In this document: in pieces, positions 9,917-31,226 of the stretch
Position numbering within the stretch: the first letter of the stretch is position 1
Layout: each line of letters starts with the position of its first letter
Virus record (IMG/VR): IMGVR_UViG_3300017786_000036
Coordinates: 1 to 40,257 of that record
Origin: a virus
Direction: 5' to 3' (one strand)
Length of the DNA: 40,257 nucleotides
Translations under genes and position numbers: made by a program
Notes under the pieces: model-generated
What the model was told of the DNA's origin: nothing
What the model saw: the letters and a program-made list of their open reading frames with translations, nothing else
The model's database searches: none

Positions 9917-12900
9917 TTAATCAAAGCCTCCTTCAAAACCTTTACTATCAAAAGAGTTGTTTTTAAATCCTGCATTGTTAAATCCACCTGATGAATTAAA
10001 TCCTGCAGCTTTCTTCTTATCTTCCCTAGCTTTCTTCTCTTTTTCTTTCTGAATCTTTTTATAAAAATCATCCATAGTTCCTTCAGATTTCCCTGAGCCT
10101 TTTTTATTTGGACCTTCTATTTGATAGTTAGAATAGTTTAGTAATCGCATAATCATTTTTCCTAAGTCTGCCTCATCACCCATCTTTGAATAGTTATCAA
10201 AGAACTTTGCTATAGTTGGCATTGGCAATCCTGTTAGAGTAGATAGTTCTAAGTAAGCATCTCTGTATGCTTTAGCTTTTTTCTCTTCATCCTTATACTT
10301 ACCTGCTTTCATAAAGTCCCTAGCAATACCATTTGCAATTTGAATAAGACCAACTGTCTTTGCTTGGCTACCTGCCCAAGGCTTATCTGTAAATGCATCT
10401 GCTGCAGTTTGTACAACTTCACCAATTATAAATAATGCATTGAGGTTACCAATAACTCCTGCTCTTAACAAATCCTCTTCGTCATCATCTCTAAAACCTC
10501 TTAGTATTCCCGGTAATCCCATTGATACATATTGAAAAAGTACAGGCATAAAAACGTGATACATCAAAAATGTCCTAACATTTTGAGCAACAGTTCCTTT
10601 ATAAGCTTGACCTGACATTGCTCTGTACAGGTTTCTTGTTGCTATTATTTCTTTTCTTAAATACTGTTTTGGTGTAGTCAAGAACATATTCATTGCTCTT
10701 GTTATTGGGTCACCTGTTTGTAAGTAATCTTTATCCTGTAAATCTGCAGATTGCTGAGTTCTTTTTGTATCCTTCTCAAATTTTATAATAGCTATATCAA
10801 TAGCCTCTTGCTCAGTCTTTCCTTGCTTCAATGCTTGTGCCTTGTAATAAGAGTAGTTAGGTAAACCACCTAGCATAATCGCACCTCTATCACCAAGCTT
10901 TGTAGTATACATTGCAAAGTTTATCAACCAATCTTTCGTAGGTCTTGGAACAAACTCTTTCATCTTAGCATCAGTATAGGTTTCGATTGCCCTCATAATA
11001 CTTTGATTGTTTCTGTCTTTCATATACACAGAGTTTTTCGTAACCTCTTTCCAAACTTTTAGTTGTTGTGTTTTATTCTTCGCTGCATACTTTAACCAAT
11101 TGACAGGACCTATATCATTCATATAAGTAAACGTAGATGTCAACTGCTTGATTGTAATTACAGGACTCAATGCAAGTCTAGATAGAATGAATACGTTGTT
11201 CATTCCATTAATTATTTTTGCTCTAATACCTGTCTGCTGACCCTGAGAAGCCACCTTCTGAATCATATCTTTTACAAAGGTATATATCTCATTACCGTGT
11301 ATATCTCCAATAGCACCCTTCACATATTCATTAGAGAAGAACTTATCCATATCTCTAATGGCTTCACCATAAGCTGCGAAGTATTCCATATCGTTGATGT
11401 ATGTATTCAATACATCCATCATATTCATAGCTTGAATAGGAAGGCTACTGTTTTGTCTGACCTTTGTAGCACCTGCACCTACTGCAGTCTTATACATATT
11501 TCCTTGACCAAGTAGATTAATTACATCAATCTCACTTTCAGGAACACCATCTCTATAAATAGTCCCTGCATAAAACTTGTTCCAAGGAAGGTCAGTTCTG
11601 TATAACTTCTTGTACGTTTTATTATACTCTTCATACAATGCAGGATATAATACTTCAACTTGCCAATCAGCAACCTCTTTTACTTTAGGGTCTAATTGTG
11701 TTTCAAGTTCTTTCATTACTCTTGCAGCATTTGCTTCGTTTGCTTTTTGCTTACGTTTCTTTTCTGAAGCAGAGTCTTCTCTATTAATTACCTCAACACC
11801 CCACATCTTTGGATTAGAAAATGATACTCTGTTTGCAGGGTCTTTATACATATTATATAGGTATGCAATTTGGTCTTGACTTATTGGTTCAAGCATAATA
11901 CCATCGTGCAGTTCGATACCTAAATCTTTTTGTATTCTATTTTCCCTAGAAACTTTCTTCCATTTTTTTCCATAAGCCTCGTATAAATAACCTGCAATGA
12001 TGGATTCAACTTCCATCATTCTCATTTTAAATCTTCTAGATGACTCATCAATTCTATCGGTAAACATTTCGTTTAGTCTACCACCAAACATCTTGCCCGG
12101 AAGTTTATCTATCCTGTCCATTAGACCATCCATAGCTTCAGCACTACCAAATGTGTAGTTACCAATCTTTGTAAACATATTAGAGAAGAATGTTCTTACT
12201 ACATTTTGTGTAGCTTTCTTTCTTTTTAAGTCTGATGCTCTTTGTTTCTTTCTATTGTTAAGTTGTGATTTAGCATCAGGGTCAGACATATCAACCTTGT
12301 CACCTGTGATAGCCTCATACCCTTGCTCAAACTGTTCGTTGTAATATTGGTGTTGTCTTAAAAGTTCTTCTTGAAGTAATGACCTACCAAACGTAATCAT
12401 CTCTTCAAGTGTTGAATAGATACCATCTAACTCTGTAACCTTATTTGGATTAGAATTTTCCATTAACATTGCATTATTGTATTGCATTGCTAACTGAAGG
12501 TCAACCATTTCCTCTCTTTGTTCTACAGTTTGTTGTGGCTCTTGAGCCAACTCGTTAAACCTATCAAGAAGTTTCATATTAACTTCCCCTATTTGTTCGG
12601 CAGTAGCCTTTGGTCCGACAAGGTTTGACTTTATTTTATCTATTCTTTTTCTAACCTCATCAACAATCTTCTTTGGTTTTAACCTACCATTCTCAACTGC
12701 TTGATACTTACCATTAAGAACACCATCTACTTTTTTCTGAAGTGATTTAATGTTTGTTTCAATAACAAAGTCTGTTACTTCCTGAAGAATGTTTTCAATA
12801 TTCTTTTCAGTAGCCTTGTTTACTTTATCAATTAACTTTATTACTTCACCTTTAGAATATAATTCTTTGGGTAATGATTTACGAATGAAGTTTCTTACTT

Positions 12901-15900
12901 CAGTCTTTATTTTCTGTAAGTCTTTTGCACCCTTTCTTCTTTGACGTAGGAACAATCTAGCTTGAGCAATCTTTTGACCTAAGTTTTGAGATGGTCTAAT
13001 ACCAAGACTGCTTTGTAAATCACTAAGCATCTGTGCTTGTTGTGTAGATATACCTTTTGTTTTAGCATCAGCTTCAGCTATGTATTCTTTCTGCTGCTCT
13101 AAAAACTCAATAGTCTTATCAAGTATTTGTTGTTCAGATAGTTTATTTTTTCTTTTGTTGTTACTCTTCTGAAGTTTTTTTCTATAAGCATCTACCTTTT
13201 GATACAATGCTAATCCTACTTGAGCACCACCTTTGACGTTACCAAAACTCTTTGGCATTTGGTCAAACAAGTCCACATCTAAAGCCATCAATTGGTTTAC
13301 AAGCTTGGCAGGAAACTTCTTAACTCTAACTAAAAAGTCTTTAATTACATCATCTCTAAAGTTATTTCTTCTAGCTTCTACGATGTATGATTCAATATCC
13401 TTTTGTTGTCTACCTTTATTCTTATAAGGATTAATCTTATAACCTCTTGAGTTTGTTAGGTAATATGAACCACCTCTACCATATTGGTCAACCCTAGATT
13501 GTTTTACACCAATGCCCGGTGGTAAATCTTTTTTCAACCTGTATAGGTCTACTTGCTTTGGTAAGAAACCATAGATGTTCATACCATAGTACTGAGCAAT
13601 TTGCTCAACTGACTTTTGTTGTCTACCCTTCGGCTTAGATTCTGTGTCATCTATCTTCTCAATGATGATACCTCTATTACCAAAAGTATTTTTCTTATAT
13701 ACATTTACTTTATCTCCAAGTAAATCTTGCACATACTCTACAAGTTCATTACCATCAAAACCTTTTTGGTATACATCTACTACCTCTCCACCTTTTTTTC
13801 TTTTGATGATATAGCTTTTATCTTCAGGACCTTTTTCAAAGTTCTTAGCATTTGCTATATCACCTTTAAATCCTCGTGAACTAATTACTGCAACACCACC
13901 CGGCTTTAGGTTTTCATATATATCCTCTACAATAAAATCTCGTACATCTTTTGGTACAACATTAAGTACATTCAATGATACGATAGCATCGTATTGTTTA
14001 TTAATATCACTAGCCTTTGTATATGTTACAGGCTTTTTACCTTTCCATCTTTCAGGATTTAGTTCGTATGAATCAACCTCAGTTCCTAACACTTGTGACA
14101 TTGCATCAGTACCAAGACCAAGACCTGCACCATAATCTAATACTTCACCTTCAATCTCAAGGTCGTTAACTATGTCTGCAGCTTTAACATAGCTACCTGT
14201 AGTGGTAGCTACCTGTGTAGTACCTGAAGACTTAGACAATGCTTTATCTATTTTTTGTTGTCTTTGTTTTCTTGATGTAACTTTTCTAACCCCTGAGCCA
14301 TAAGGTGCTACCTTTTGACTTGTTGTGGTTCTACCTGAGCCTTCCATTGAATCCCTCATTTCTTTAGGCATCAATTCAAATGCATCAATCTTAGTATCAG
14401 GGATACCAACTACATCACCTAAAATAGTATTGCTATAAGTTGAATGACTAGAACCTTCTTGTACTCCCGTTGGTTTTAATACCAACATAATATCGTTCTG
14501 TTTAAAATCATTCTCTTTATAGAAACCATCTCTCATAGAGTTAGGGTCTATGAAGCCATCTAAACCTTTAACTAGTTTATGGTACTCCGTGTTTGGAGTT
14601 TTCTCTTGTTTGATATGTGCAATCAGAAAGTTTTTTCTAATTGAACCATCAGCTTCTTTTATAGATTCCCAACTGTCATATTCTGTAAGTACATCCTTAA
14701 CCCCCTTTACAGGCTTAGTTTTTAATGCATTCTTTTTAAAAGTATTATAGTCACCTAGCTTGTTTATGTATGCATCATATACTTTTTTATTAAACAGGTG
14801 ACTCTTTGTAGGTGAACCACTAATAATAAATATGTAATCAGAATTATTAATATTCTTTTCTAATTTGGTTACAGGAAAACTACTTGCCCAAGCAACACCA
14901 TCTTGTTGTAAAGCATAACTTGGACCTGCATCAATATCCATCTCGGCATCTAAACCAAGTTGGTCTGCTACCCAAAACCAAACCTTTTGGTCGTTCTCAG
15001 CTATCTCATCTATCAATGCATCAATATCAATTTTGTTTGCTGCAGTAACTAATGATAGTGGATATGAATCTTTAAAGTTTAACTTCTGTTGCTTTCCTTT
15101 TGGTTTTACAATTGTAGTTGGATTACCTATAGGATTGGTTCCATTATCTAGTTCTTCTAATGTAGCAATATCAGACTCTTCAATAACCTCACCCTTTCTA
15201 GTTTTTCTTGATATAACATTTAGTAAGTCAATAACATCAGCATCTTTTGCTCCGAAGTCATTTCCTATTTCAATACCAAACTTTCTTGCAATATTCTTTA
15301 AGAACTCTACAATTACATTCTTAGATGGTTTATCAAGTTGTCTATACTCAGACGAAAGAATACCTACTAACTCTGCTAATCTTTCTTCGTTTTGAAATTC
15401 TCCTTCATAACTTTTAGCAAAGGCTTCAATTCTTTTTCCAAGTGCACTATCCTTTGGTACAACTTTTTGTACAGACAATACCATTTGCTCTGCTGCTCTT
15501 GCAATTGCAGGGTCAGTCTTAACCTTCTCCATTAAAACTGCGTGGAATATTTCGTGTGGTACTGTAGTTTTTGTAGCCTTAGATAAGTTAATATGAATAG
15601 TAGTGTTGTCAGGGTTATACTCTGCTCTACCGTCACCAAGCTTTGCGTACTTTAAATACTGCTCATTAGTTTCGTGCATTACTATTCTAACATTAGGCAA
15701 TACTTTTGATATAGCTTTTGCTCCAAGGTCAGCTATTTTAATTACACTACTTCTAAATGGATTAGTATTTTTAGAACCATCCTCGCTTCTGTTTAAAGCA
15801 ATGTTTTGTCCTTTTACTTCAGAACTATCTTCTGTTTCATTAAAGAATGAATCAATATCACTTTGCTCTTCAACCGTTACATTGCCCGGTTTGTTAATGG

Positions 15901-18619
15901 ATTGGTCATCAACTACCTTACCATCTTGGAACTCATTGATTTTTTGCTCTGATGTTTTATCTTGTTGTTGTTGGGTATTAACTTCACCAACTAATCCTGC
16001 TAGTCTATCATTAACTCTATTCAGTAAATCTTGTTTCGGTTTAGACAGTACATCATCTTCACTTTTAATTTGCGATTCAAGAGATTCTTTTTGAAAGATT
16101 AATTGTAAAGCTTCTTTTCTTTGGTTGGTGTTGTAATCACTAGGTATTCTTGGTAGTATACCTTGTAATCTTTTTACCAAAGCTAATTCTTCTTGTGCTT
16201 CCTTTTTTGTTTTAGGGTCATTTGAATCAGCTATTTTTTGTTTAAGTTTTGTAACGTACATCTTAGTGTAGTTCTCATCTTTTGTCATAAACTCAAACAT
16301 CTCGTATATCCTGTTGTCAAGCTTTTGTACTTGCAATCCTGATACTGCATTGGCAACTCCACCCGGTGTACCTAATATGAAACCACCTATGGCTTCTTGC
16401 ATACCTGCTCTGTTTACCTGAGTAATCCAATCTTTCCAAGTTTCAGGAGTTCTAAACATATCCTTACCCTTGACATCATTGTAAATATCTTTTATAGTTA
16501 ACTCTGCTGCTTCTTGTAATGCACCTGTTTCGTATTCTGCCAACCCACCTGCACCAACAGTAAGAATTCCTCTCCCTATCATTGATTCTACATCTTGTCT
16601 AATAAACTCTCCAAATGATTTTGCAGTTGTGTTTTTTGTAGACTTCCTTAATGCTCTGCTAACAACACCATTTAATAAACCCTTTTGACCAATCACGTTT
16701 CTAAAACCAATTGCTTCTAGAGTACCTACTGCTACACCAATAGGAACTGCAACCATAGATTTTTCACTTTCAGTTACATTATCGAATGCTGCATTCTCCT
16801 CCATCTCTTCATAAACGTGGTCTGTTACCTGAGCATACATCTGTGCAGTACGTTGTGCCCATCCTGCCGGACTACTACCACCTATCATAGCAGGTAATGA
16901 TTCTGTTAAACCAAGTAATGCACCACCCCAAAATCCCTCTTTAGCAGTATCACTCCATTGTTTTGTGGTATTATCACTACCCAATACTTCTCTCATTCCT
17001 CTACGACCTGCATCTAACATTCCTAATGTTACATCGGTTCCTTGAGCAGTTGAAGAGAATGGGTTTCTATATCTACCTTCTACTGCTTGGTCATAACTTT
17101 CAAACTCTTTTATACCTTTACGGACTAGGTCCATAACCTTTGCGTTTGCTTTGTCAAATTCAGTTTCTTCTACAATAGGTATACTGTACGCAGCTTTTCC
17201 TAGTCTAAGTGCTAGTGCAGTTTGCAATAAAGTTTGTCCAAGAAACTTAGAATCATTTGTATCACCACCAAGTTCTTTTATAAGGTCTTCTTTACTTAAA
17301 TCATAAACACTAGGAAAGGTTTCAATTGGTATCATCTTTGGTGTACCCAACTCAGGGTCCAACACTTCTACCATACCATTTTTAATTTTGCTTTCCGGAT
17401 AAGTTTCTCTAAACTTACCTTCTTCAAAAGAACCATTTTCTAATGCAACCCTAGCTATTTCAGATTTATAATCCCTCTCACCCATACCTCTATTAGGTGT
17501 GAAGTAAGTAGCAGCATCAGTCATTACGTTCATTGCCGTAGTTCCAAACCTAGCACTACCATCTAGTAATGCATTAACGAATGCACCACCCGGTGCACCT
17601 TGTTCAGAAGCCATCTCATAATACTCACCTGCCATTTGGTCAAGCTTGGCTCCCTTTCTTTCAAAGTCTTGATTTTGTTTTTTTAAATCTTCTAATACTT
17701 TATTGGAAGCTTCTTTCGCTGAAACCCATTGTTCAAAGTTTGCCTTCAGAACAGGGTCAGAATTTAACTGTTCTTTAGTTACATTGGAAAAGTTCTTTTT
17801 ATATAGATTGTCTAACTTGTTTTTATATAAGGCATACTCTTTTAAGTCAGACTCAAACTTTTTTGATTCTTCATTAAAAGCTTTTACTGTATTGATAATT
17901 TGTTCTTCATTATCAATCTTTCTTTTGTTCTCAATAATAGCAGTAGATTGGTCTATGATGATTTGGTTCTCTGCTCTATTTTCTTTTAAGAATTTTTGTA
18001 AAGCTTCAGCCTCTCCTTTTTCTCCCCAAAACGGGTCAAGGTTGGTATAGTGTTCATTGCCATTTGCAGCCTTAACTTTCATACCATCCCCTATTCCTGT
18101 TTCAGCAAAGGTGAATCCATAATCATTAAACTGATAATTTAGTTTTGGAACTACATACTCTTCTTCATAATCTATGAGGTCTGCATTAACACCTGCTAGT
18201 GACTCATCAAAAAAGTTAGCAGGTTGCTCATCTAAAAGAGTACCATCATAAGGATTTTTTTCAACCTCTATCGGAGTACCATCTTCCGATAAAGAATCTG
18301 ATTCGGGAGAAGGAACAAAGGATTCCGGAGTATTCGGAAGTGCGAACTCTTCGGATACCAAACTTTCGGGTTCGTCTTTTTTTTTTACTTGCTCTACTGC
18401 TTCACTAACCATTGCATCTCCACCTACGGCTCCACCAAAACCAACTAGAGTTTTGAATTGTTCCACATCTTTTGTGTAGCCATCGTTTTGTGCAAGACCA
18501 TACATTTGATTTATTGCATTCTCGTTCTCACTCATTAATTGTTTGAAGTCATCAAACGACTTAGAGTAACCATCGCCTTGTGCAAGAACATATAGTTGTT
18601 GTAATGCTTTTTCGTTCAT
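9917..18619 (-). CDS. Giant polyvalent internal virion protein (T7 gp16 position)
   Basis: 2900 residues, 22% of the window. In order: two 30-residue LYxLAQxDGY repeats (9-58); an acidic, low-complexity and coiled-coil region; Gly/Ala-rich hydrophobic helices at about 560-800; a zincin-type metallopeptidase motif HEIFH (1022-1026) followed by an NEERLAELVG helix; a domain of unknown type (about 1180-1450); a class I SAM methyltransferase with DYGAGLGLG (1495-1503); a short 65-residue domain; then about 1150 residues of helical DarB/LPD-like polyvalent sequence with hydrophobic segments (such as FMPVLFQYVSMGLPGIL) and a Phe-repeat tail. [K/R]QQK linkers separate the central domains. Its place after gp13/14/15-like genes indicates an ejected internal protein that enters the cell with the DNA. 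Confidence 0.85.
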   Translation of the reverse strand: MNEKALQQLYVLAQGDGYSKSFDDFKQLMSENENAINQMYGLAQNDGYTKDVEQFKTLVGFGGAVGGDAMVSEAVEQVKKKDEPESLVSEEFALPNTPESFVPSPESDSLSEDGTPIEVEKNPYDGTLLDEQPANFFDESLAGVNADLIDYEEEYVVPKLNYQFNDYGFTFAETGIGDGMKVKAANGNEHYTNLDPFWGEKGEAEALQKFLKENRAENQIIIDQSTAIIENKRKIDNEEQIINTVKAFNEESKKFESDLKEYALYKNKLDNLYKKNFSNVTKEQLNSDPVLKANFEQWVSAKEASNKVLEDLKKQNQDFERKGAKLDQMAGEYYEMASEQGAPGGAFVNALLDGSARFGTTAMNVMTDAATYFTPNRGMGERDYKSEIARVALENGSFEEGKFRETYPESKIKNGMVEVLDPELGTPKMIPIETFPSVYDLSKEDLIKELGGDTNDSKFLGQTLLQTALALRLGKAAYSIPIVEETEFDKANAKVMDLVRKGIKEFESYDQAVEGRYRNPFSSTAQGTDVTLGMLDAGRRGMREVLGSDNTTKQWSDTAKEGFWGGALLGLTESLPAMIGGSSPAGWAQRTAQMYAQVTDHVYEEMEENAAFDNVTESEKSMVAVPIGVAVGTLEAIGFRNVIGQKGLLNGVVSRALRKSTKNTTAKSFGEFIRQDVESMIGRGILTVGAGGLAEYETGALQEAAELTIKDIYNDVKGKDMFRTPETWKDWITQVNRAGMQEAIGGFILGTPGGVANAVSGLQVQKLDNRIYEMFEFMTKDENYTKMYVTKLKQKIADSNDPKTKKEAQEELALVKRLQGILPRIPSDYNTNQRKEALQLIFQKESLESQIKSEDDVLSKPKQDLLNRVNDRLAGLVGEVNTQQQQDKTSEQKINEFQDGKVVDDQSINKPGNVTVEEQSDIDSFFNETEDSSEVKGQNIALNRSEDGSKNTNPFRSSVIKIADLGAKAISKVLPNVRIVMHETNEQYLKYAKLGDGRAEYNPDNTTIHINLSKATKTTVPHEIFHAVLMEKVKTDPAIARAAEQMVLSVQKVVPKDSALGKRIEAFAKSYEGEFQNEERLAELVGILSSEYRQLDKPSKNVIVEFLKNIARKFGIEIGNDFGAKDADVIDLLNVISRKTRKGEVIEESDIATLEELDNGTNPIGNPTTIVKPKGKQQKLNFKDSYPLSLVTAANKIDIDALIDEIAENDQKVWFWVADQLGLDAEMDIDAGPSYALQQDGVAWASSFPVTKLEKNINNSDYIFIISGSPTKSHLFNKKVYDAYINKLGDYNTFKKNALKTKPVKGVKDVLTEYDSWESIKEADGSIRKNFLIAHIKQEKTPNTEYHKLVKGLDGFIDPNSMRDGFYKENDFKQNDIMLVLKPTGVQEGSSHSTYSNTILGDVVGIPDTKIDAFELMPKEMRDSMEGSGRTTTSQKVAPYGSGVRKVTSRKQRQQKIDKALSKSSGTTQVATTTGSYVKAADIVNDLEIEGEVLDYGAGLGLGTDAMSQVLGTEVDSYELNPERWKGKKPVTYTKASDINKQYDAIVSLNVLNVVPKDVRDFIVEDIYENLKPGGVAVISSRGFKGDIANAKNFEKGPEDKSYIIKRKKGGEVVDVYQKGFDGNELVEYVQDLLGDKVNVYKKNTFGNRGIIIEKIDDTESKPKGRQQKSVEQIAQYYGMNIYGFLPKQVDLYRLKKDLPPGIGVKQSRVDQYGRGGSYYLTNSRGYKINPYKNKGRQQKDIESYIVEARRNNFRDDVIKDFLVRVKKFPAKLVNQLMALDVDLFDQMPKSFGNVKGGAQVGLALYQKVDAYRKKLQKSNNKRKNKLSEQQILDKTIEFLEQQKEYIAEADAKTKGISTQQAQMLSDLQSSLGIRPSQNLGQKIAQARLFLRQRRKGAKDLQKIKTEVRNFIRKSLPKELYSKGEVIKLIDKVNKATEKNIENILQEVTDFVIETNIKSLQKKVDGVLNGKYQAVENGRLKPKKIVDEVRKRIDKIKSNLVGPKATAEQIGEVNMKLLDRFNELAQEPQQTVEQREEMVDLQLAMQYNNAMLMENSNPNKVTELDGIYSTLEEMITFGRSLLQEELLRQHQYYNEQFEQGYEAITGDKVDMSDPDAKSQLNNRKKQRASDLKRKKATQNVVRTFFSNMFTKIGNYTFGSAEAMDGLMDRIDKLPGKMFGGRLNEMFTDRIDESSRRFKMRMMEVESIIAGYLYEAYGKKWKKVSRENRIQKDLGIELHDGIMLEPISQDQIAYLYNMYKDPANRVSFSNPKMWGVEVINREDSASEKKRKQKANEANAARVMKELETQLDPKVKEVADWQVEVLYPALYEEYNKTYKKLYRTDLPWNKFYAGTIYRDGVPESEIDVINLLGQGNMYKTAVGAGATKVRQNSSLPIQAMNMMDVLNTYINDMEYFAAYGEAIRDMDKFFSNEYVKGAIGDIHGNEIYTFVKDMIQKVASQGQQTGIRAKIINGMNNVFILSRLALSPVITIKQLTSTFTYMNDIGPVNWLKYAAKNKTQQLKVWKEVTKNSVYMKDRNNQSIMRAIETYTDAKMKEFVPRPTKDWLINFAMYTTKLGDRGAIMLGGLPNYSYYKAQALKQGKTEQEAIDIAIIKFEKDTKRTQQSADLQDKDYLQTGDPITRAMNMFLTTPKQYLRKEIIATRNLYRAMSGQAYKGTVAQNVRTFLMYHVFMPVLFQYVSMGLPGILRGFRDDDEEDLLRAGVIGNLNALFIIGEVVQTAADAFTDKPWAGSQAKTVGLIQIANGIARDFMKAGKYKDEEKKAKAYRDAYLELSTLTGLPMPTIAKFFDNYSKMGDEADLGKMIMRLLNYSNYQIEGPNKKGSGKSEGTMDDFYKKIQKEKEKKAREDKKKAAGFNSSGGFNNAGFKNNSFDSKGFEGGFD
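18446..18595 (-). repeat. Tandem LYxLAQxDGY repeat at N-terminus of the giant protein
   Basis: Encodes residues 9-28 and 39-58, two copies of [L/M]Y-x-LAQ-x-DGY-[S/T]K-x4-FK-x-L spaced exactly 30 residues. The spacing and identity point to an internal duplication. The gp15-like neighbour contains a single similar LYGLAQG stretch. Confidence 0.75.
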
Positions 18620-21802: not shown

Positions 21803-22624
21803 TTAAGGGAATGATTTCATTACTTCACTTTCAACTGCAAACAGTTCTACTTTACTAGTATTGTTGTTGATGAGGCTGAATACTGCATAGTGTCCTAATA
21901 TTCCGTGAGATTCTGCAACTGAATTTTTAATATATAAAATATACTCTGTTCCGGTTGGTGGAACTTGAGCACCTAATATATTCGTAGCTACTACAATCTC
22001 ATTAATACCATTAGGTATATCAATGTTTGTAGAAATAATTTGACCCATCAGTTGTGGTGTTGTTCCAAAGTAAAGCATATCACCTATGCTTATAATACTC
22101 CCAATAGATACACTAGTAGAAAACCTAACTATGTTTTGCCCTGCTTGTGGAGCATCAATAAGAATATTGGAACTCGTAGCAATACCATTTAATGAACGTA
22201 GTGCATATTGATTTGCATTTGCAGGACTAGCAAATGTCTGACCTGAGTTTCTTATAAAAGCAAAATAGGCTTGTTCTTTTTTCTCATAGTAATCTGCATC
22301 TATAAACCCTGTGTCTTGTAAATCACTTTTAACTGTAGTTGTCCAAGTGTCATCACCTTCAAGATTTATAGTTTTAAATAACTTGTTCTCTAATGGTTGC
22401 TCATTAAAAACAGACTCAACTTTAGCAGGGTAATTAACACCATAGTATTGGTTTCTAGTTTCGTTAGTATTATGACGAAACACATTACCTCCTTTGAACG
22501 TATAAAAATAATTATTCATACCTATCATCCAATCAGGATTATAGGAATAAAAAGATGGAAATCCTTTTACACCACTATCATAACTTAGTGTATAATTTGC
22601 ATTTTTAGTTACTTGATTACTCAT
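21803..22624 (-). CDS. Tail structural protein (crAss-like distal tail type)
   Basis: 273 residues. The segment from about 14 to 52 (SYDSGVKGFPSFYSYNPDWM, then GMNNYFYTFKGGNVFRHN) is a pattern I associate with tail proteins of crAss-like and related Bacteroidota podoviruses. The remainder alternates beta-strands, including ISIGDMLYFGTTPQLMG, as in tail or fibre domains. It lies downstream of the muzzle-like and Cys-rich tail genes and upstream of the ejection cassette. A role as a tail component or adhesin support is likely; the precise place in the virion is not deducible. Confidence 0.65.
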   Translation of the reverse strand: MSNQVTKNANYTLSYDSGVKGFPSFYSYNPDWMIGMNNYFYTFKGGNVFRHNTNETRNQYYGVNYPAKVESVFNEQPLENKLFKTINLEGDDTWTTTVKSDLQDTGFIDADYYEKKEQAYFAFIRNSGQTFASPANANQYALRSLNGIATSSNILIDAPQAGQNIVRFSTSVSIGSIISIGDMLYFGTTPQLMGQIISTNIDIPNGINEIVVATNILGAQVPPTGTEYILYIKNSVAESHGILGHYAVFSLINNNTSKVELFAVESEVMKSFP

Positions 22625-30473: not shown

Positions 30474-31226
30474 TTAATCTAATAAGGATTCTAAGTGTTC
30501 TAGAACCTCAACTCCATCATCTGATTGCATATACTGACAAACTATATCAAGAGCCTCTTCCCCAAACGGTACATTAAGTAGTTTGGTTTTGTTAGATGCA
30601 GTATTAAACCATACTTCTTTTCCACTTTTTCTGAAACCTAAAAGTCCATTGTCAAAGAATCTTTGTACGGTTCCCATAAGTTTTAAGTCAGGGTCTTTAA
30701 TTACATCTAAGAAATCTTGAGGATTATTTTTAGCATAAACCAATATATCTCTTTTCATTTCTGCAGTAGAAACTTTAGATGTGTCAGTATTAAATAATAC
30801 TCTACATACATTTTCTAGTTGCTCTAGTGATAGTTTCTTAGCTTCAACTAATGCATCAGCTTCTACCATAAGTGCATCTACTTGTGCTGCTGCATCTTTG
30901 CTTTCGTTAATCTCAGTAAATGTTTTACCATTTAAAGTATGATAGTGTAAAAACTTTTGTAGTATTTGATTTTCCTTAGGTACATATAAAAACCCATCCT
31001 CAAAAATGATTGGTTCTAAAACCACATTTTTATCTTGCTCATCTCTGAAACAAGAGTTTTGGTTTCTTGCATATCTAAGTTCACGGTTGACACCTGTGCT
31101 CTCATCAAAATGTAATAAAGGAAATCTTCTTGAATGTTTTGTTGGTAGCATATAAGTGAGAGGTGCTACTCCTCTTAGAAGCTTGTAACTCTTGTCTACA
31201 AACTTTTGTTGTTTATTTTTTTTCAT
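30474..31226 (-). CDS. Conserved virion-region protein, unknown function
   Basis: 250 residues. I recognise the pattern as a conserved gene next to the capsid gene in Bacteroidota podoviruses but know no function. The N-terminal part carries HFDESTGVNRELRYARNQNS, then FRDEQDKNVVLEPIIFEDGF and LYVPKENQILQKFLHYH. A helical region (about 105-185) with Ala/Glu/Leu helices follows, and the end is acidic (VEVLEHLESLLD). It has its own terminator downstream and another upstream, so it may be expressed at a level different from that of the capsid gene. It could be a head-completion or capsid-accessory protein. Confidence 0.65.
   Translation of the reverse strand: MKKNKQQKFVDKSYKLLRGVAPLTYMLPTKHSRRFPLLHFDESTGVNRELRYARNQNSCFRDEQDKNVVLEPIIFEDGFLYVPKENQILQKFLHYHTLNGKTFTEINESKDAAAQVDALMVEADALVEAKKLSLEQLENVCRVLFNTDTSKVSTAEMKRDILVYAKNNPQDFLDVIKDPDLKLMGTVQRFFDNGLLGFRKSGKEVWFNTASNKTKLLNVPFGEEALDIVCQYMQSDDGVEVLEHLESLLD

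Follow-up and report, generated by a model that had tools for sequence, protein, structure and literature searches.

Private border peptides in a family of giant zincin-containing phage proteins point to probable polyproteins with coevolving cleavage sites

Here, we explored a giant polyvalent protein encoded in IMG/VR record IMGVR_UViG_3300017786_000036, a stretch of 40,257 nt from an uncultured phage that we refer to, over its whole length, as the window. The modules of this protein are separated by a short recurrent peptide, which varies among homologues in such a way that all copies within one chain change together, is kept alike at the protein level, and partly tracks the zincin embedded in the same chain. 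On the basis of sequence comparison, we lean towards the interpretation that these peptides are coevolving cleavage sites of a phage polyprotein, with the embedded zincin as the most likely protease. More broadly, we see about an even chance that uncultured podoviruses of a large, probably flavobacterial family encode true DNA-phage polyproteins, with a zincin of drifting specificity acting in cis and a private motif at every cassette border, that is, a lineage-specific protease-site code with which acquired domains are re-tagged.

The protein of 2900 aa, delimited from its open reading frame (ORF) and homologues, is encoded on the minus strand at positions 9917..18619, where its gene closes a block that encodes the terminase, the portal and virion structural proteins. 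From this location and from the annotation of relatives in phages elemo and Gundel_1 as ‘structural protein’, we infer that it resides in the virion. The same block includes a minus-strand gene (21803-22624) whose product carries the C-terminal domain of the crassvirus muzzle protein (PF25729), which connects the podovirus with crass-like tails. Like the polyvalent proteins of phages and conjugative elements (PMC5512222), the giant protein is a multidomain virion-type protein combining a zincin, a methyltransferase and other effectors. Members of that class contain 2 to 15 unrelated, reshuffled domains per chain; here we find a zincin, a domain denoted X, a methyltransferase, a domain denoted W and a C-terminal block, with other modules in relatives, and the zincin-like metallopeptidase domain, the commonest of the class, is present with its HExxH and EE motifs. 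Several of the structural neighbours in BFVD are named large polyvalent protein, and the viral proteins closest in structure are giant and polyvalent proteins of phages. In Pfam, only methyltransferase models matched (residues 1489-1581), with no hit to the large-polyvalent-protein domains, which are usual but not required in the published class. Residues 1-60 (18439-18619, minus strand) consist of two similar tandem stretches (LY.LAQ.DGY.K....FK.L), possibly a docking repeat.

The first-pass annotation reported four [K/R]QQK peptides in this chain, at residues 1175, 1453, 1665 and 1736, and these positions are exact. Border motif 1, GKQQK (residues 1175-1179; 15083..15097, on the minus strand, as are all features of the chain), separates the zincin-containing part from the X domain (residues 1180-1440; 14300..15082). 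Motif 2, RQQK (1453-1456; 14252..14263), lies between X and a SAM-dependent methyltransferase module (1457-1664; 13628..14251), motif 3, GRQQK (1665-1669; 13613..13627), between the methyltransferase and the W domain of ~65 aa (1670-1735; 13415..13612), and motif 4, GRQQK (1736-1740; 13400..13414), between W and the C-terminal part (1741-2900; 9917..13399), which homologue alignments show to be common to the family. The ORF contains exactly these four copies of [KR]QQK, with 0.11 expected from composition and at least three copies in 0 of 5000 shuffles. The K/P-rich linkers said to precede each motif are evident at sites 1 and 3 (IVKPK, SKPK), whereas the description is loose for sites 2 and 4 (TSRKQ, NPYKNK). 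Outside the giant protein, the sole ORF of the window with [KR]QQK encodes a 250-aa protein (30474-31226) that starts with MKKNKQQK; we rejected it as a substrate in trans, given that this N-terminus is not conserved among the readable homologues.

Two AlphaFold models, one of the zincin and X (38 input sequences, mean pLDDT 78) and one of the methyltransferase, W and the start of the C-terminal part (21 sequences, mean pLDDT 72), place the motifs between domains. Segments with pLDDT below 50 (residues 1157-1170, 1447-1467, 1660-1667 and 1734-1739) lie at or adjoining all four motifs, motif 2 being modelled as a weak helix in the second model, and each domain border carries its short motif in sequence and models alike. 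The proposal that the motifs mark domain limits is thus upheld; as for the earlier caveat that they might be buried inside the domains of an intact protein, the sequence evidence puts them in linkers. The zincin itself (residues 960-1160; 15140..15742) has an invariant HExxH, HEIFH (1022-1026; 15542..15556), and a downstream acidic pair, E1078-E1079 (15383..15388), invariant in the 38-sequence alignment and a candidate for the third zinc ligand. By sequence, it matched no family in Pfam or PDB, and the nearest solved folds of the first model are zincins with IrrE on top, a weak match at E 0.07. The X domain (KVWFWVADQLG...DAGPS) is strongly conserved across 64 viral loci (alignment A2), has no match in Pfam or PDB and is a candidate uncharacterised effector. 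The methyltransferase is clearly assigned by Pfam (PF13489, E 7e-7) and by Foldseek with the modelled structure (E 1e-6); the same module occurs in an 835-aa protein encoded beside the portal gene of roseophage CRP-738 (L156, 3449-5956), with neither border motif nor zincin. W is compact in the model.

Scanning IMG/VR with the whole protein, its far C-terminal block (A1) and the X domain yielded 153 loci. After removal of redundancy, 107 long ORFs were left, and almost every one encodes the giant protein, whole or in part, which gives about 105 viral-metagenome homologues; rescanning for loci with one sequence as query added no further members. In one locus (L004, 9932-18702), the giant ORF is split over two frames (2158 + 795 aa), perhaps by a sequencing error. 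The usual layout is the zincin, a variable cassette of ~100 to >1000 aa whose modules differ among relatives, and a conserved block, C. Every chain repeats its own border peptide: GRQQK in the window protein and, at the same borders in relatives, REQK (four copies, L006), GREQ/GRQQ (L019), GREQ (three copies, L028), RRQQ of the RRQQR type (L030), EKAQ of the EKAQK type (L066, L053 and L105), KEKNQK (L050 and L054), RKNKEQ/KNKEQK (L083) or RRRQRR (L041). L006, L019, L028, L030, L066 and L083 have the same borders as the window protein with a different signature and different domains. What the signatures share is the form [K/R]-x-Q-[K/R], preceded by G or by a charged residue, basic or acidic, the Q and the following basic residue being invariant by construction, as they were built into the search pattern. 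When a module is found in several chains, both its flanks mostly show the signature of the host chain, as observed for W (43 proteins) and likewise for the methyltransferase (4 proteins). The motif therefore follows the borders under domain swaps, a check suggested in the first-pass annotation and passed by a wide margin; contrary to its concern that the motif might not be conserved in homologues, conservation takes the form of a protein-specific signature.

Co-variation is apparent from the linkers flanking X, which are more similar within a protein (18.0) than between proteins (14.0 +- 0.44; 0 of 2000 permutations), with no signal in the same test on windows inside X. Phylogeny was left uncorrected in this comparison, and relatedness raises the permuted scores, so that the bias works against the result. 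Of 145 homology edges, 65 fall no more than 10 aa from a motif, compared with 12.3 +- 3.2 (maximum 23 in 1000) for random placement, the motif list being taken from the same protein set. When recurring 6-mers were sought without a preset pattern, 21 of 61 cassettes scored above each of 20 shuffles, mostly through the border motif. Even the originally noted [K/R]QQK, unchanged, is concentrated in cassettes of relatives outside its clade (18 in 30 kaa vs 9 in 135 kaa elsewhere, p 4e-8), and G[KR][EQ]Q occurs 52 times in cassettes and 3 times elsewhere. The lysine-rich linkers could suggest that such motifs arise by chance or from a generic K/Q-rich composition, a scarcely credible explanation that is refuted by the shuffles, by the co-variation and by controls in which most anagram patterns were flat and generic basic runs were not concentrated at edges; a few basic-Q anagrams were mildly raised because they overlap real motifs. 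Another possibility is that the motifs are leftovers of domain shuffling at the DNA level, i.e., short repeated DNA at module junctions. The modules are clearly shuffled, and sites 3 and 4 of the window share 15 identical bases, but motif copies share 216 of 381 codons compared with 207 predicted by codon usage (87 copy pairs, 39 proteins), indicating that the peptide rather than the DNA is kept alike; this largely refutes the DNA-level reading, which we regard as very improbable.

The motifs are also partly linked with the zincin. Of 93 strong motifs, 88 are located in the interval from the zincin to the C-block, with nearly none N-terminal to the zincin or beyond the start of the C-block, and none in the nine relatives that have C but lack this zincin type. 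Among these nine, L024, L029 and L042 have another zincin type directly before C and no cassette, L032 and L043 have no HExxH, and L018 is a fragment with weaker SRQQK and RRQK copies outside the strong pattern; since without a cassette there is no border to cut, the joint absence is a correlation only. In a joint regression of motif distance next to C, the zincin (beta 0.29, 0/1000) and A1 (beta 0.30) contribute, with no link to the adjacent C-block (-0.02) or the N region. Given that the motif also follows A1, the link to the zincin is in part a matter of common descent. When only pairs with more than 45% divergence in each of A1, C and N are considered, the zincin alone correlates with the motif (r 0.20, p 0.0075; p 0.055 at the strictest divergence cut, 50%). 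Consistently, L034 and the window protein share KQRQQK with zincins 80% identical and C-blocks 48% identical. Relatives with the zincin and X but a different C-terminus mostly have weaker motifs.

The partial character of this tracking, seen also for A1, leaves room for the view that another protease, either a second phage enzyme or one of the host, cuts the motifs while the zincin does something else. One such candidate exists, namely, the ArdC-type zincin encoded in genome L001, but we rejected it as a general processing enzyme, given that just 5 of the 24 long records encode it and that it is missing from motif-bearing records. In the 61-kb relative G001, the product of L189 1605-2537 is an ArdC-like antirestriction protein that contains a second zincin. 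No other protease was found among the scanned proteins of the window and G001, signatures private to each phage speak against a common host enzyme, and the lack of strong motifs in the nine relatives without this zincin type also counts against a separate enzyme, so that we consider it unlikely. Short basic motifs in linkers, repeated per module, would also be compatible with uncut docking or handling signals that coevolve with a binder such as a chaperone, the portal, or the unfolding or ejection machinery; indeed, partial unfolding of cargo on ejection has been proposed for a crassvirus (PMC10172136). Handling signals would, however, also be useful before the zincin and past the start of the C-block, where the motifs are nearly absent, and the link to the zincin argues against this quite unlikely alternative as well.

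Under the favoured scenario of a zincin-processed polyprotein, the giant protein would consist of the N-terminal 1178 residues including the zincin, an exchangeable effector cassette, here X, the methyltransferase and W (65 aa), and the common C-terminal part. The protein-specific peptide at each border, of the form [basic/G]-[K/R]-x-Q-[K/R], would be the recognition site at which the embedded zincin most likely acts, either on its own chain (in cis) or on another copy (in trans), perhaps cleaving after the Q and releasing pieces of roughly 131, 31, 23, 8 and 133 kDa during assembly or in the host. Whereas the motif, the borders and the swap test of the first-pass annotation stand as observations, its cutting step, the zincin as cutter and the timing in assembly or ejection are what we infer. 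Drift of the protease specificity, or exchange of the zincin, would oblige every site in the chain to follow, resulting in private signatures. Given that there is nearly no strong motif between the N region and the zincin or in the C-terminal half, the model predicts that the zincin stays on the N-terminal part.

In the polyproteins of animal and plant RNA viruses, an embedded protease cuts a short site at each border, and the sites drift with the protease. The window protein is similar in having an embedded putative protease and a short site at each border, but differs in that it belongs to a dsDNA tailed phage, carries virion-associated effectors and a zincin rather than a serine or cysteine protease, and that its cleavage is presumed. 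Iyer et al. 2017 (PMC5512222) proposed that polyvalent proteins are processed by their embedded zincins, which would free the individual domains, and compared them with the polyproteins of RNA viruses; a cleavage motif, a site or a linker between domains is not mentioned in their main text. In the window family, we find a repeated border signature that co-varies per chain, and in the literature searched we found no description of this signature or its covariation. DdrB of phage P1, a zincin-containing internal head protein, is reported to be processed (via PMC5512222), in one step to a 76-kDa product rather than at a series of module borders. The N4 virion RNA polymerase, which has a zincin, is packaged uncut (PMC5512222), which counts against the polyprotein reading. 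In giant phages, gp245 of SPN3US and related internal head proteins are cut at a short motif by the prohead protease (PMC10052503), a separate enzyme acting on several head proteins, whereas the border motif of the window occurs in a single chain; a Pfam scan of part of the larger ORFs of the window and G001 detected no prohead protease.

With the border signature, the general proposal of release by zincins gains named sites, predicted fragments and a built-in test of specificity, because several diverged protease/site pairs can be compared in vitro; such orthogonal pairs could also serve as reagents. The motif further marks out natural modules within giant proteins, an aid in the search for unknown effectors that phages inject.

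Beyond the metagenomic homologues, the cultured phage Gundel_1 has no border motif, and Flavobacterium phage elemo was rejected as a motif bearer, having a single TRQQK, which precedes an ART-like module, and no set of recurring copies. A scan of a genome collection gave one match, a motif-free relative of the giant protein (L190) from a 1.05-Mb Aenigmatarchaeota bin; it is 41% identical in A1 and may represent either a prophage or a chimeric bin.
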